A DNA stretch of 64,000 nt. Origin: Bdellovibrio svalbardensis. Its GTDB lineage: Bacteria; Bdellovibrionota; Bdellovibrionia; Bdellovibrionales; Bdellovibrionaceae. The notes below the pieces were generated by a model. That model saw only the letters and a list, made by a program, of their open reading frames with translations. It was not told the origin of the DNA and did not search any database. Position 1 is the first letter of the stretch. Each line of letters starts with the position of its first letter. Made by a program: the position numbers and the translations under genes. The stretch is taken from contig NZ_JANRMI010000002.1 in the NCBI RefSeq assembly GCF_029531655.1, forward strand, positions 930,001 through 994,000, given 5' to 3'. This document shows, piece by piece, positions 6,501-18,665 of the stretch.

Positions 6501-6509
6501 GCAAAAACA

Positions 6510-6534
6510 GCAAAAGGTGCCTGGCACCTTTTGC
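6510..6534. repeat. Dispersed palindrome family A, copy 1 (possible terminator)
   Basis: Arms GCAAAAGGTGCC and GGCACCTTTTGC flank a single T. A second copy lies at 45872-45896. The two share this palindrome plus the adjoining GCGAGTGAA, about 34 bp identical in inverted orientation. It sits between the convergent EAL and IucA/IucC-like genes, where it could also end transcription. Confidence 0.8.
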
Positions 6535-6553
6535 TTCACTCGCGGCGTCACGA

Positions 6554-7720
6554 TCATAGGAATATGCGCTGACAACTTAAGGTGTTCGTTTTTTTGAATT
6601 CTCTCTTGATGACCTGCTCAAAAGATGGATGGAAATTAAGACTCTTTAACTTCTTTTTTAGAATATCAAAAGACGATCCCACCAGATAAGTTTGAAACGC
6701 TGTCTCCATAACCGGAGACCACTCCTGAGGACGGCTCCCTGGAACTTTCTTGGATCTCATTTTTTGAAGATTTTCTAAATCAAAAATCCACGCGGCGTCT
6801 TTCTGCGACAATAAAGTCTCATCCTTAAATCCCAGCTTCTTACGGAGTTCAAAATCCACGCGTGCTCCATCTAAATCGCGATAGAAGATCCTTCCCGTAA
6901 ATTTTCCACTTTGATCTATTTCCAACAGAGTATTTTGCTGATGCATTTCAAGAGCAACACCATGCTGAGCCCCTTTAATAAAGGCCTCCAGCAAAGAAGG
7001 AAGTATTTCCTGCAGCACCAGATGTTCAGCACTCACCCCACGAAGAGCGGCCTCCTTCTCCAAAAGCGATCCATCCGAATGCTTGGCCACATAAGACAAA
7101 AGAGGCACCAGAGTGTTTGAGCCCTTCACCAAAGTTGCGGGAATTTCACGCACGATGAAGCCAAAGGGGCTATTAGGGGTTTTGTCATAAAACGCCAGCG
7201 GCTCAGGCAGAAAATGAAATCCTGAAGCCTGCGACAGAAGATCGTTGATGGCGGTCGCCCGGGACATTTGCAGGGGATAAACCGTGCGAATCGCCCCGTT
7301 AATTTTTTGTGGCAATGAGACTTTCACCATCAAATCATCGACAAAAAAAGTTCTGGGCGAAGTTGTTGGTCGTGCTGAAACTTCCTTAAGAGTCCCTTGC
7401 GAAATCAACTCTTTGAATAGTTCTGTGGCCTTGGGGTGAATGTAGAATTTTATCTTTCCATCAGCCGTCTTCAATTTTTCAAAAATTTCAGGCTTTAAAG
7501 ATTTCGCAGAAATAAAGTCCACTTTTCCCGGGTCGATCTCCAAAACATAAAGCGTCTCAGTTTGATACGAACTCAATTCAGCCTTCGAAGGAAGCTGATG
7601 ATAGATACTGGAATTCAACTGTAAATCATTGCGCTCAACTTCCCATTTTTGCCAACGCTCCAGGTCCGCATAAGCCTGAGAAAGAAATAGGAATGAGATG
7701 AGCCCGAAAAATAACTTCAT
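6554..7720 (-). CDS. Exported IucA/IucC-like (NIS siderophore synthetase-related) protein
   Basis: A 388-residue protein with a clear Sec signal peptide (residues 1-18, SQAYA). The rest carries, in the right order, motifs of the NRPS-independent siderophore synthetase fold: 'FYIHP' (94-96), 'TTSPRTFF' (S121, R123, T124), 'MVKVSLP' (K133), 'INGAIRT' (R145), 'LPEP' then 'IVREIP' (R191), and 'HGVALEMHQQN' (H260, N263) followed by 'FYRDLDG' (R281, D282). In known enzymes these residues bind ATP and citrate. The usual N-terminal ATP-lid region of about 150 residues is missing and the protein is far shorter than the 550-600 typical. Export is unexpected because ATP is cytoplasmic, so it may be a repurposed or inactive family member. 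Motif-based inference. Confidence 0.6.
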   Translation of the reverse strand: MKLFFGLISFLFLSQAYADLERWQKWEVERNDLQLNSSIYHQLPSKAELSSYQTETLYVLEIDPGKVDFISAKSLKPEIFEKLKTADGKIKFYIHPKATELFKELISQGTLKEVSARPTTSPRTFFVDDLMVKVSLPQKINGAIRTVYPLQMSRATAINDLLSQASGFHFLPEPLAFYDKTPNSPFGFIVREIPATLVKGSNTLVPLLSYVAKHSDGSLLEKEAALRGVSAEHLVLQEILPSLLEAFIKGAQHGVALEMHQQNTLLEIDQSGKFTGRIFYRDLDGARVDFELRKKLGFKDETLLSQKDAAWIFDLENLQKMRSKKVPGSRPQEWSPVMETAFQTYLVGSSFDILKKKLKSLNFHPSFEQVIKREFKKTNTLSCQRIFL

Positions 7721-10370: not shown

Positions 10371-10829
10371 ATGCGCTTCCTCTGGATTTTCTTATTTTTC
10401 ACCCTCACCTTTAATATTGCTCAGGCAAAATGTGTTGCAAGCGCAAATTCCTGCGAGTTTTACCGTTGCATGGAACAAGAAAAATCCTGCGGTTCCAAGG
10501 GCTACTGGAAAGAATTCGGGTATCCTTACTGCACCAAATTTCTTATCAACCAAAACAAGTTTTCTCCACGACTGCAGCGCTGGCTCACCGATGTTCGAGA
10601 GTGTCTGCAAGTTCGAGTGAGCGAGTCCACTCAACAGGCAAGCTGCTCCCAGACCTATCGAGCGGCGATGGACAGCCATGTCTCTTGCTATGTTGATACT
10701 GGATTTTGCGAACTAAATATGGCTGAGCGTTTTAAGATTTACTGGAGTCTTAAAGGCGCTCTTCGCCATCAAATCACCTGGAAAGAAGCGCGCTTGCTTA
10801 GACATGCTTGCAACGAAAAGCTCGATTAA
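10371..10829 (+). CDS. Secreted cysteine-rich hypothetical protein
   Basis: A 152-residue protein with a Sec signal peptide (MRFLWIFLFFTLTFNIAQAK, cleavage after AQA). The mature 133 residues contain ten or more cysteines (for example 'KCVASANSCEFYRCMEQEKS', 'YPYCTK', 'RECLQV', 'SCSQTY', 'SCYVDTGFC', 'RHACNEK'), enough for several disulfides in the periplasm or outside. I know no family for it. Its TAA is directly followed by the stop codon of the convergent L,D-transpeptidase gene, so their 3' ends abut with no space for a terminator. Confidence 0.75.
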   Translation: MRFLWIFLFFTLTFNIAQAKCVASANSCEFYRCMEQEKSCGSKGYWKEFGYPYCTKFLINQNKFSPRLQRWLTDVRECLQVRVSESTQQASCSQTYRAAMDSHVSCYVDTGFCELNMAERFKIYWSLKGALRHQITWKEARLLRHACNEKLD

Positions 10830-11603
10830 CTACGGAATAGCCACCACCTCTTGACCGGTCATCGCCTCGTCCATCAACGAACTGTAGTAATGCATAATCA
10901 AGCTTCCATAACCTAAAGTTGTAATAAGCTTTTGTATCAAAGAGGACGAAACTGCCGGACAACCCCAACTCAAGCCAAGACGTCCATATTTTTGCCCCGT
11001 CAGGGGGTCTATGGAGTTGATAAACTCATCGCCGACATACCACGCACCGTGCAGAACAATATCCCGGTTATAAGCTTGATCATTGGAGCCTTGAAGACCA
11101 TACATTCTTAAAGTCCTGCCATAGCGCCCTGAATAGGTCTCACCCGTGAGATAGATCCCCAAAGAAGTCTGCTTTGAATCTTTCAGATTACTGAATTTCG
11201 AAGCAAAATTGCTCTTACCGCTCCCCACTCCATGTGAAGAATAAAATCGCGTCACAGCCCCTGTTGTGAGATTGATTAAAAAAAATCGAAATACCGTCGA
11301 AGGCTCCCCATAGTCAATAATCACAACCTGCTGAGGTTCGTTCAAGGTCACCAATTTACTTGAGCGAATTCGTTTGGACTCCTCACACGGAGTCACACTC
11401 GCCGGATCCGCCCCCACGCAAGTATAAATATCCTGGATAAAGCTGCGCCCTTTGAAGTCATCCATGAATTTTAATAGTCGGCTCAGGGCATCTTCTGGAA
11501 CGCCTTGTGAAATGATTTTCTGGATAATGACAGGCGAAGGAGATGCCGAAGCATTCAAAGAAATCAGACTAAGAAGAGCCATAGATAAAAATTTGCTTAA
11601 CAC
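10830..11603 (-). CDS. Secreted murein L,D-transpeptidase catalytic domain protein (YkuD_2 type)
   Basis: A 257-residue protein with a signal peptide (residues 1-21, NASAS). The region 95-240 matches the murein L,D-transpeptidase catalytic family: 'VFRFFLINLTTGAVTRF', 'SSHGVGSG', 'IVLHGAWYVGD' (H185) and 'RLGLSWGCPAVS' with the nucleophile C215 next to the family's GCPA. Such enzymes form or cleave 3-3 cross-links or attach proteins to peptidoglycan in the periplasm; Bdellovibrio relatives use many of them on their own and prey walls. It stands alone on the minus strand, divergent from the large caspase-like gene. Confidence 0.85.
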   Translation of the reverse strand: MLSKFLSMALLSLISLNASASPSPVIIQKIISQGVPEDALSRLLKFMDDFKGRSFIQDIYTCVGADPASVTPCEESKRIRSSKLVTLNEPQQVVIIDYGEPSTVFRFFLINLTTGAVTRFYSSHGVGSGKSNFASKFSNLKDSKQTSLGIYLTGETYSGRYGRTLRMYGLQGSNDQAYNRDIVLHGAWYVGDEFINSIDPLTGQKYGRLGLSWGCPAVSSSLIQKLITTLGYGSLIMHYYSSLMDEAMTGQEVVAIP

Positions 11604-13735: not shown

Positions 13736-14521
13736 ATGAAAAAGTATATAGCGTTACTTGCCGGTTTAATGATTTCAATGACCTTGGAAGCCAAGGTTTT
13801 GGTGATTTCTGATATCGATGACACCTTAAAAGTATCCCATGTTCTCTCAAAGAAAGGGGCGGCATCCTCCTTTGTGGATGAATCCAGTCGCTTCGTAGGA
13901 ATGTCTGAAATATTTCAAATGTTAGACCTTCAACATGAAGACATTGAGTTTCACTATGTCAGCCTGGCCCCTAAGTTCCTCATGGAAGGACAGCATTTAG
14001 ACTTCCTGGAAGAAAATGGCTTCCCAATCACAGAGCTTCACATGAACCCTGGAATGAAGCAGGATCCAGATTTAAAACAAAAGGCCATACGCAAAGTCTT
14101 GAGAGAGAAAAATCCAGAACTGGTCATCTACTTTGGTGACAACGGACAATTCGACACTGTTGTCTACGATCAGATGAGCAAAGAGTTTCCACAAATTCCA
14201 GCCATCAGCTATATCCGCGAAGCTTATTCGAAGTTGAACCTTTCCAAACATCCGACAAAGCCAGGGCAGATCGGTTTTGTGACAAGCGTTGAGGTCGTGA
14301 TTGATTTAATTTCTAAAGGTCTGCTTCCGCAGAAAGCTTACGGCCCTATTGAAAATATCGTCTACAAACGCATGAAGCGCGATGACCGCCATGAAATGCT
14401 GGGCGCCATGGTATTCCCGTGGTGGCAAGATTGCCGTGATTTCAAATGGGTCTGGAATATCGCGAATCCATCGGCAAAATTGCAGGCTATTGAGGCTACG
14501 ATTGCCGAGAAGTGCCGATAG
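13736..14521 (+). CDS. Secreted DUF2183 (App1-like) HAD phosphatase, copy 1
   Basis: A 261-residue protein with a signal peptide (residues 1-19, TLEAK). 'VLVISDIDDTLKVSHVL' (from residue 21) holds the DxDxT phosphatase motif of the HAD superfamily; 'FHYVSLAPKFLMEGQ' supplies motif II Ser and 'ELVIYFGDNGQFDTVVY' the acidic motif IV. This pattern matches DUF2183, the catalytic domain of yeast App1, a phosphatidate phosphatase. An exported version could dephosphorylate lipids. A paralogue lies at 17868-18665 with the same layout, including a C-terminal 'GFVTSVEVVIDL' and a final Cys. An SD (AGGAG) precedes the ATG. Confidence 0.85.
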   Translation: MKKYIALLAGLMISMTLEAKVLVISDIDDTLKVSHVLSKKGAASSFVDESSRFVGMSEIFQMLDLQHEDIEFHYVSLAPKFLMEGQHLDFLEENGFPITELHMNPGMKQDPDLKQKAIRKVLREKNPELVIYFGDNGQFDTVVYDQMSKEFPQIPAISYIREAYSKLNLSKHPTKPGQIGFVTSVEVVIDLISKGLLPQKAYGPIENIVYKRMKRDDRHEMLGAMVFPWWQDCRDFKWVWNIANPSAKLQAIEATIAEKCR

Positions 14522-17046: not shown

Positions 17047-17868
17047 TTACACTTTCAGCGCTAAAGGCAATTGCGGAATCATCTCAAACAAGTCCTCTTC
17101 CAAAGATTGACCTGTTTCACCGAGCATTTCGTGGAAGGATTTTTTATCCAAATTAGCAACAATCTCAAAGGATTTTTTATAAAAACCCTCCTGATCTTCA
17201 TAATACCCGTTCCACAGTTCTCGCGCCTTGCTTTCCGTCATAAACCAGGACTTTTTCTCAGCGGCAGTGCCTTCAAAGCGATTGTGATAATCAAGTAAAG
17301 TCATAACCTGTCGAGGAGAGAAATCCAGCATCACCAATGCTTCTTCCAGCAATGCGAGTTCTACGTACCAAAGATAATTGCTCAATTTTTCCCAAAATTG
17401 CTCACCTTTTTTACCGTATGAACTTTTACAGAAAAAAGTGGTGCAAACCACACCGCGATTTCTCCACACGTTGCAGTTTTGATTTTCTTTATTGAAGTAA
17501 GGACAGAGCCAATCTTCGCGCTGACCAAACTCATGCTCTTCCCGATTATTAAAAGGAACTTGATACGCCACAGGTGCCACCAAACCAATTGGCAGAGCGT
17601 ACTCTCTGCGTGCGATCTTGCCTCTGAATATTTCATGGGCCTTGGTGGATGACTGTTCGTTGAAAATCGCGCCCACCATAAAATTGGGAAGGAAAGGATG
17701 AAAGGTGCAGCATTTCAAATCTTCACGATAATGAATCTTGCCCGTTTCGCGAGGTCTCGCCATCGCGCAAGTATCGCAAGTGGCTTTTTTCTCTTCCGGA
17801 GAGAAATCCAAGATTTCTCTCGGCAACAGGTTTCCGTAAATATGGGGAAGTTGATATTTTAAGTTCAT
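17047..17868 (-). CDS. YkgJ-like cysteine-cluster protein
   Basis: A 273-residue cytoplasmic protein with eight cysteines in a conserved-looking arrangement: C31-x2-C34, C53-C54, then 'CPYFNKENQNCNVWRNRG' and 'VVCTTFFC' (C122, C132, C142, C147). The second half matches the pattern of YkgJ-type Fe-S/zinc-chelating domains (C, about 9 residues, C-x-V-[YW]-x2-R-x3-C-x4-C). The last 110 residues are helical and lack Cys. It shares one base with the DUF2183 stop (TAATG) and abuts sufE, so the three are translationally coupled. Co-occurrence with SufE hints at a bound Fe-S cluster; not proven. Confidence 0.65.
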   Translation of the reverse strand: MNLKYQLPHIYGNLLPREILDFSPEEKKATCDTCAMARPRETGKIHYREDLKCCTFHPFLPNFMVGAIFNEQSSTKAHEIFRGKIARREYALPIGLVAPVAYQVPFNNREEHEFGQREDWLCPYFNKENQNCNVWRNRGVVCTTFFCKSSYGKKGEQFWEKLSNYLWYVELALLEEALVMLDFSPRQVMTLLDYHNRFEGTAAEKKSWFMTESKARELWNGYYEDQEGFYKKSFEIVANLDKKSFHEMLGETGQSLEEDLFEMIPQLPLALKV

Positions 17869-18665
17869 TATTTTTGGCAGCGCTCTTCAAGTCTTTGTTT
17901 TAATTCGGGGAGGTTCGGATATACACCGACATCATCCCATTTCCAAACAAAGTCATTACAGCGCATAAACTTTGGAAAAGCCACTGTGCCAACGTCATAG
18001 TCTTTCTTCTGTTTCAGAATGGCACTCGCAATATTTTCTGCCGTCCAGACAACTGATTCTTCCGCCAGCAACCCAGCCTTCTTCAGCTCGAAAGAAACCT
18101 CAACCGGCGTTACAAACCCCACCTGATCCGCGAAAGGAATTACACCTGCGTCCTCAGAGTCTTTGCTTGAATAGACCAGACGGATGAACTGATAGAAGCG
18201 CACACCTTTCGTTTCGTATTCGCTTTTGATTTGCTCATAAACCTCGGCGTCTTTTTCGCCGTTATCACCAAAGAAAATCACCTTGTCAGGATTTTCGCTG
18301 TTCATGATGGAACGAATCGTAATGAGTTTATGAGTCTCCATACTGAGATTTGTGCGAGGAATGTAAACGCCCGCGGGAAATTTTCCATTACGCAGAAACT
18401 GTTCGTGGGTTCCCTGCATCCACCAAGACGGGGCTCTGGAAACATAGTAAACGGAAAGATCCGGATTGTCTTTTTTGATCAAAGTAAACAACTCCGCCAT
18501 CCCAAGAAAACGACTTTTATCATCAAAGGAATACGAAGCGGCACTGCTGAGGTCTAAAACATTTGCGAGCTTCAGCGTATCATCGACATCGCTCACCAAT
18601 AGAGTCTTAGCCTGTCCAACAGAAAGAAATAGAAAGACGAGCGCAAGAATGGAAATACTTCTCAT
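17868..18665 (-). CDS. Secreted DUF2183 (App1-like) HAD phosphatase, copy 2
   Basis: A 265-residue exported protein (signal peptide residues 1-19, VGQAK). 'TLLVSDVDDTLKLANVLDL' has the DxDxT motif, 'VYYVSRAPSWWMQG' motif II and 'KVIFFGDNGEKDAEVYEQ' motif IV. It is clearly a paralogue of the protein at 13736-14521: same domain order, the shared 'VGFVTPVEV' near the C-terminus, and a terminal Cys. The mature proteins differ enough (perhaps a third identical by eye) to suggest an old duplication with separate substrates. First gene of the operon with the YkgJ-like protein and sufE. CGGAGGG before the ATG is a very strong ribosome-binding site. Confidence 0.85.
   Translation of the reverse strand: MRSISILALVFLFLSVGQAKTLLVSDVDDTLKLANVLDLSSAASYSFDDKSRFLGMAELFTLIKKDNPDLSVYYVSRAPSWWMQGTHEQFLRNGKFPAGVYIPRTNLSMETHKLITIRSIMNSENPDKVIFFGDNGEKDAEVYEQIKSEYETKGVRFYQFIRLVYSSKDSEDAGVIPFADQVGFVTPVEVSFELKKAGLLAEESVVWTAENIASAILKQKKDYDVGTVAFPKFMRCNDFVWKWDDVGVYPNLPELKQRLEERCQK

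Follow-up and report, generated by a model that had tools for sequence, protein, structure and literature searches.

A family of putatively exported relatives of NIS siderophore synthetases in Bdellovibrionota

The 64,000-nucleotide stretch of the Bdellovibrio svalbardensis genome analyzed here (the window) encodes, in an open reading frame that begins with ATG, a putatively exported protein related to the NRPS-independent siderophore (NIS) synthetases, which are regarded as cytoplasmic siderophore enzymes. This protein belongs to a large, separate family that extends across the phylum Bdellovibrionota and is not a stray truncation. Structure models indicate that the exported proteins keep the NIS core and are without roughly the first 120 to 155 residues of AcsD. 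As for function, we tentatively favor an extracytoplasmic, Mg-nucleotide-dependent enzyme that would form adenylates or transfer AMP. The features of the gene and its product are listed in Table 1.

Table 1. Positions within the window of the gene for the exported NIS synthetase-like protein and of its features
Feature	Position	Strand	Basis or remark
Coding sequence, exported NIS-synthetase-like protein	6554..7720	-	388 aa, single cysteine C383; orthologues in 4 congeners, 55-63% identity
Sec signal peptide, aa 1-18 (MKLFFGLISFLFLSQAYA)	7667..7720	-	Sequence; conserved in L002-L005; home-made rule on family
IucA_IucC core (PF04183), aa 100-209	7094..7423	-	Profile positions 108-236 of 239
S121-P-R123-T124, equivalent to S279, R281, T282 of AcsD	7349..7360	-	AcsD alignment; family conservation
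K133, equivalent to K293 of AcsD	7322..7324	-	Alignment; in 92/95 sequences, remaining 3 are gaps
R145, equivalent to R305 of AcsD	7286..7288	-	Alignment; R/K in 51/54 ungapped type-a sequences, relaxed in type b
E173, near-invariant acidic core residue	7202..7204	-	Family conservation
FhuF-like C-terminal region (PF06276), aa 239-316	6773..7006	-	Pfam
E258-M-H260-Q-Q262-N263, equivalent to E442-x-H444-x-x-N447 of AcsD	6932..6949	-	Alignment; conservation
R281-D282-L-D-G; D282 is equivalent to the second acidic site (D464) of AcsD	6866..6880	-	Alignment; conservation
C-terminal CQRIFL (family consensus C-x-x-[VLI]-[FL])	6557..6574	-	Sequence and family count
Terminator-like hairpin, 12 pairs then GTTTTT, just 3' of the stop	6509..6535	-	Consensus match only

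Domain searches, alignments, and predicted folds all connect the window protein with the NIS synthetases. It matches both the IucA_IucC family (PF04183; E 2.9e-8, 34.0 bits, cut-off 25) and the FhuF-like family (PF06276; E 3.3e-7, 31.4 bits, cut-off 25.2) in Pfam, and in NCBIfam it matches only FslA, below threshold. The motifs follow one another as H95-P96, S121-x-R123-T124, K133, R145-T146, E258-x-H260-x-Q262-N263, and R281-D282. In both pairwise and profile alignments, the SxRT, K, R, ExHxxN, and RD elements fall opposite their counterparts in the solved AcsD, AsbB, and IucA. An AF2 model of the window protein, built from seven sequences, is of moderate confidence (pTM 0.64, mean pLDDT 59.6). 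When it was compared with the PDB using Foldseek, the 50 matches listed with E<=0.001 were all NIS synthetases, and VIA placed it closest to AcsD (Z 19.8, 331 residues, rmsd 5.6), followed by protein kinases at Z 9.8. A relative from a Bdellovibrionaceae MAG (L019) yielded a better model (pTM 0.67, pLDDT 68.4), which matched residues 157-538 of AcsD with Z 22.4, followed by SelO/YdiU and WaaP near Z 9.6. The structural match to AcsD starts at about residue 121 for the window protein (best row) and at 157 for L019. These results bear out the initial annotation, which had described an IucA/IucC-like protein with the late NIS motifs in order. With two Pfam families over threshold, listed PDB matches that are all NIS synthetases, and a near-invariant site in 95 divergent sequences, this kinship goes well beyond chance. 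The window family shares with AcsD, AsbB, IucA/IucC, DesD, AlcC, and SbnC the combined PF04183 and PF06276 core, the fold, the matched ATP/Mg-site residues, and the ExHxxN and RD elements. Unlike them, it is exported, is without the N-terminal portion and the GHPxHPxxK motif, forms a separate clade, and has no siderophore gene context.

The putative active site is strongly conserved. Across 95 sequences, comprising 58 of type a (window-like) and 37 of type b (a second paralogue group), S121, R123, K133, E173, R191, H260, Q262, N263, and D282 are nearly invariant; in type b, D replaces E258 and R145 is relaxed. All of the ATP/Mg-site residues S279, R281, T282, K293, H444, N447, and D464 (AcsD numbering) are matched in the window protein, where S279, R281, T282, K293, N447, and D464 are the residues that we take to form this site in AcsD. 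E442, H444, and R305 of AcsD correspond to E258, H260, and R145 of the window protein. The substitutions E442D and R501A abolish AcsD activity, and H444 and R305 have been mutated in earlier work (PMC3323832). For the AcsD acceptor-site residues R501 and K563, inspection of the alignment by eye found no invariant counterpart in the family. The closest ortholog pair (L003/L004) has a dN of 0.049 and a dS of 0.508, a ratio of about 0.1 that indicates purifying selection. The family proteins likely bind nucleotides, and catalysis by adenylate formation is plausible.

The N-terminus of the window protein, MKLFFGLISFLFLSQAYA-D, has the classic make-up of a Sec signal peptide and is kept in the four congener orthologues. 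To place it in context, 94 family ORFs (including some overlapping fragments of one gene) and 14 canonical NIS ORFs were collected from genomes of the phylum and two actinobacteria. A simple home-made rule predicts a signal peptide in 77 of the 94 family ORFs, 11 of which have a lipobox, and most of the 17 rule-negative ORFs either are cut at contig or locus ends or have a visible signal that the rule missed. The same rule selects only 2 of the 14 canonical ORFs, both of them spurious-looking internal starts in actinobacteria. A pattern search finds the GHPxHPxxK-type motif in 10 of the canonical ORFs versus none of the 94 family ORFs. The Sec signal that the initial annotation had reported is thus predicted again here and is shared by orthologues. 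Its accompanying statement, that the protein lacks the N-terminal ATP-lid region, is right insofar as the N-terminal portion and the GHPxHPxxK motif are absent but does not extend to the ATP site, as the residues matched to that of AcsD are all present.

At 388 amino acids, compared with about 590-620 for canonical NIS synthetases, the window protein could be viewed as the product of a decayed, once ordinary NIS gene or as a cytoplasmic protein with a misplaced start. This explanation is barely credible given that signal peptides, some with a lipobox, recur in the family and in the orthologues, that only three in-frame codons separate the ATG from an upstream stop, and that dN/dS is about 0.1 for L003/L004. 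The family also forms a separate clade, and congeners lacking the gene carry no remnant of it where the locus is complete. In view of the orthologous signal peptides, the low dN/dS, and clean presence or absence at one site, we reject a mis-called start or a pseudogene.

Orthologues of the window gene with 55-63% identity occur in 4 of 23 congeners, so that the window type is patchy within the genus (5/24 genomes). In the other 19 congeners, the interval from the conserved EAL gene to the downstream genes contains no match to the window gene; complete loci show a clean site that bears no remnant, and a few loci are cut too short for a judgment. A profile of eleven members has matches in 57 of the 143 genomes of the class and in 110 of the 368 genomes of the phylum, distributed over 60 of 181 genera, with 110 being an upper figure for the exported family since a few of the matches are canonical NIS synthetases. 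Named records with the family come from Bdellovibrionota, namely, from Bdellovibrionaceae, Bacteriovoracaceae, and Oligoflexia MAGs. A contig scan with the single window protein gave no match, and a scan with an alignment, which used one short pattern and says nothing on absence elsewhere, returned six Bdellovibrionota loci and two actinobacterial loci that are ordinary NIS synthetases. Viral contigs contained no match to the family. In a tree of 84 rows, a single branch with an SH-aLRT of 99 parts 59 exported from 25 canonical sequences; the tree comes from a quick search, is unrooted, and has long branches. The window genome itself has a second exported paralogue, of type b, at G000:C2:197199-197903(-) (L057:5819-7105), with 428 aa, a signal peptide, and a C-terminal cysteine.

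Because the window gene and an EAL gene converge and a terminator-like hairpin lies behind the window gene, little about its function can be read from gene order. From its sequence surroundings, the gene appears monocistronic, and we rejected operon partners, with the neighbors conserved among congeners being ordinary and unrelated. The neighbors scanned with Pfam include an M50 peptidase, an acyl-CoA dehydrogenase, SBP_bac_5, cNMP plus EAL, SDR, PTPS, and a pseudouridine synthase. No transporter partner is encoded adjoining the gene. Elsewhere in the window, two proteins with signal peptides (13736-14521(+) and 17868-18665(-)) have APP1-like phosphatidate phosphatase catalytic domains and a cysteine two or three residues before the C-terminus; in L081, the gene immediately upstream of the NIS-like one encodes a protein similar to them by eye.

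Given its fold kinship with siderophore synthetases, the window protein might carry out an extracytoplasmic step in siderophore maturation or uptake. We consider this very unlikely. A Pfam scan found no siderophore gene among ten neighbors (1.6-18.7 kb), in agreement with the initial annotation, which had seen no siderophore export or uptake genes nearby. A PF04183 search over the class separates canonical pairs of about 590-620 aa, which score ~190-240 bits and are found in many congeners, from the exported type at ~23-46 bits. By the same search, the window genome has the exported type only and no canonical NIS synthetase, which argues against a siderophore role there. In congeners, canonical NIS pairs occur both with and without the window type. 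A separate exported clade and a genome without a canonical NIS synthetase make a role other than cytoplasmic siderophore synthesis likely. The new role that had been suggested for a secreted member therefore holds up in this respect, with the proposed ligase-like or binding function staying conjectural, though what was taken for one odd protein belongs to a family found across the phylum and has a paralogue in its own genome. Tandem canonical NIS synthetase pairs of congeners and relatives are found at L167, L168, L169, L170, and L172. A window-type relative from a family outside the window's order (L089:4234-5529(-)) adjoins genes that by eye resemble CbiM/CbiQ/CbiO-type metal transporter genes.

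The reading that we tentatively favor is that of an extracytoplasmic adenylate-forming or AMP-transferring enzyme. Exported through Sec, the window protein would be a periplasmic or secreted enzyme with an NIS catalytic core. It would bind Mg-ATP or another adenine nucleotide via S121/R123/K133/H260/N263/D282 and would pass AMP on to a carboxylate or a macromolecule, most probably so as to form an extracytoplasmic ester or amide bond. Lysed prey or the surroundings might supply the nucleotide, which is a guess on our part. The signal peptide, fold, conserved site, separate clade, and purifying selection are computed for the window protein or its family; beyond these, we infer activity, adenylation, substrate, and nucleotide source. 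Several points count against this proposal. Periplasmic ATP is not known to be plentiful. All 94 family ORFs lack the N-terminal part and the GHPxHPxxK motif that canonical NIS synthetases retain; inspection by eye showed no invariant counterpart of the acceptor-site residues R501 and K563; E258 and R145 are altered in type b; and the window genome has no exported NadD-like partner.

Given the likeness of the NIS core to the kinase fold, both substrate and chemistry may have shifted. The window protein could therefore be an exported AMP-transferase or phosphotransferase that acts on proteins or envelope glycans in the manner of SelO or a kinase, and not a ligase of small molecules. The next structural matches after the NIS synthetases are indeed protein kinases for the window protein and SelO/YdiU and WaaP for L019, and the near-invariant K133, E173, N263, and D282 recall the kinase Lys, Glu, Asn, and DFG-Asp if these positions are equivalent. 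Lipoproteins occur among the family members, as do fusions to other domains that may act on the envelope. With the SelO/YdiU protein AMPylators, the family would share a kinase-like fold and AMP-transfer chemistry, and with protein kinases and kinase-like enzymes (PRPK, WaaP) a kinase-like arrangement (Z 9.8 or less). However, Z values to kinases and SelO stay below 10 compared to about 20 for NIS synthetases, the next-nearest match of L019, to SelO/YdiU (Z 9.6), is weak, and the window protein has no Pfam kinase or SelO match. Its H-x-Q-N loop, presumably equivalent to the kinase catalytic loop, is without the catalytic Asp, and the ExH glutamate that AcsD needs is kept in type a. On balance, we regard such an enzyme as unlikely, yet as deserving appreciable weight. 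Canonical SelO is not known to be exported in bacteria.

Loss of the N-terminal region with the nucleotide site kept, along with the patchy presence of the window type (5/24 genomes), would also fit an extracytoplasmic protein that binds nucleotides without catalysis, for example in adenine-nucleotide scavenging or sensing. We find this doubtful. A pure binder would be expected to relax the residues corresponding to the AcsD catalysis residues E442, H444, and R305, but type a keeps them as strictly as the phosphate ligands, and the gene has no adjoining transporter partner.

An extracytoplasmic chemistry of adenylates, as we propose, can also be considered alongside the NadD-like nucleotidyltransferases that accompany some relatives. 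One case is G054 (L069), in which a NadD-like nucleotidyltransferase that has an intact HxGH (PF01467 E 1.8e-17) forms the C-terminal part of a fusion with the NIS-like domain. The NIS-like domain of G355 (L088) is preceded by an N-terminal stretch that resembles the NadD-like domain by a weak pairwise match (E 1e-4), with no HxGH and no Pfam match. The NIS-like gene of G363 (L087) is overlapped by the gene directly downstream of it, which encodes an exported NadD-like protein (PF01467 E 2.1e-11). As three separate associations, in distant lineages, of two AMP-transferring folds in signal-peptide proteins, these arrangements suggest a shared extracytoplasmic nucleotide chemistry. A more elaborate scheme, which we consider speculative and improbable, is that exported NIS-like and NadD-like proteins of Bdellovibrionota would jointly modify envelope or prey molecules by AMP transfer outside the cytoplasm, with ATP made from prey NAD+ and pyrophosphate via the reverse NadD reaction. 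The window genome encodes no exported NadD-like partner; its own NadD is ordinary and has no signal peptide.

Signal-peptide proteins with a NadD-like domain, stand-alone or in other fusions, occur in Bdellovibrionota at L087:5548-6291(+), L209:240-980, L210, L211, L203, L212-L215, and L207. Some of them have a fused N-terminal domain with a 'VDLWNAHHR' motif that is ParB-like by eye. The N-terminal part of L203 had seemed SelO-like by eye, for which Pfam and PDB sequence searches gave no support. Other architectures include a 2118-aa exported protein (L078:1916-8272(-)) with a type-b NIS-like domain and weak amidoligase-like and HEAT-like stretches; the amidoligase match is below the cut-off (E 0.026), and we do not count it as a domain. 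Two NIS-like proteins (L081:3883-6162(+) and L010:1246-3303(-)) have an N-terminal HExxH-bearing region, which in L081 is Peptidase_M91-like, just below the cut-off. In L021-L024, variants of the exported NIS-like gene encoding 618-720 aa are adjoined by genes for an exported family that has an ESCAxxCxS/T motif and no Pfam match (L021:6071-7075(+), L022:9350-10327(+), L023:9431-10528(+) and 10525-11514(+), and L024:9561-10544(+)).

The exported family is apparently undescribed. The papers available for searching yielded nothing on IucA/IucC proteins that are exported, nor, for Bdellovibrio, on these genes. The fold as such is known, but these papers describe neither the compartment nor the loss of the N-terminal part and motif, and neither the separate clade nor the link to NadD. 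An exported clade that has kept the nucleotide site and lost the N-terminus would mean that ATP-dependent chemistry takes place in the periplasm or beyond the cell, or else that the fold has been put to a new use in nucleotide binding. ATP-type chemistry may thus take place outside the cytoplasm in Bdellovibrionota. This phylum includes predatory bacteria, and predators that live within the envelope of their prey could plausibly draw nucleotides from that prey. With plain Pfam or automatic annotation, these genes would be mislabeled as siderophore biosynthesis.

A final feature of the family is a cysteine close to the C-terminus. C383 is the sole cysteine of the mature window protein and lies six residues from its end. 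A cysteine within the last 14 residues, with the consensus C-x-x-[VLI]-[FL], is present in 71 of the 94 family ORFs, and in 42 of the 77 signal-peptide-bearing members the C-terminal cysteine is the only one of the mature protein. A disulfide or another covalent link through this residue is one possibility. The motif is unsupported as a general export tag: within 400 kb of the genome plus the window, its strict form stands at the C-terminus of 2 of 131 soluble exported proteins, one of which is the window protein. Some exported NadD-like proteins (L203, L209, L210, and L211) have a C-x-x-hydrophobic-[FL]-like C-terminal motif in common with the exported NIS-like proteins.
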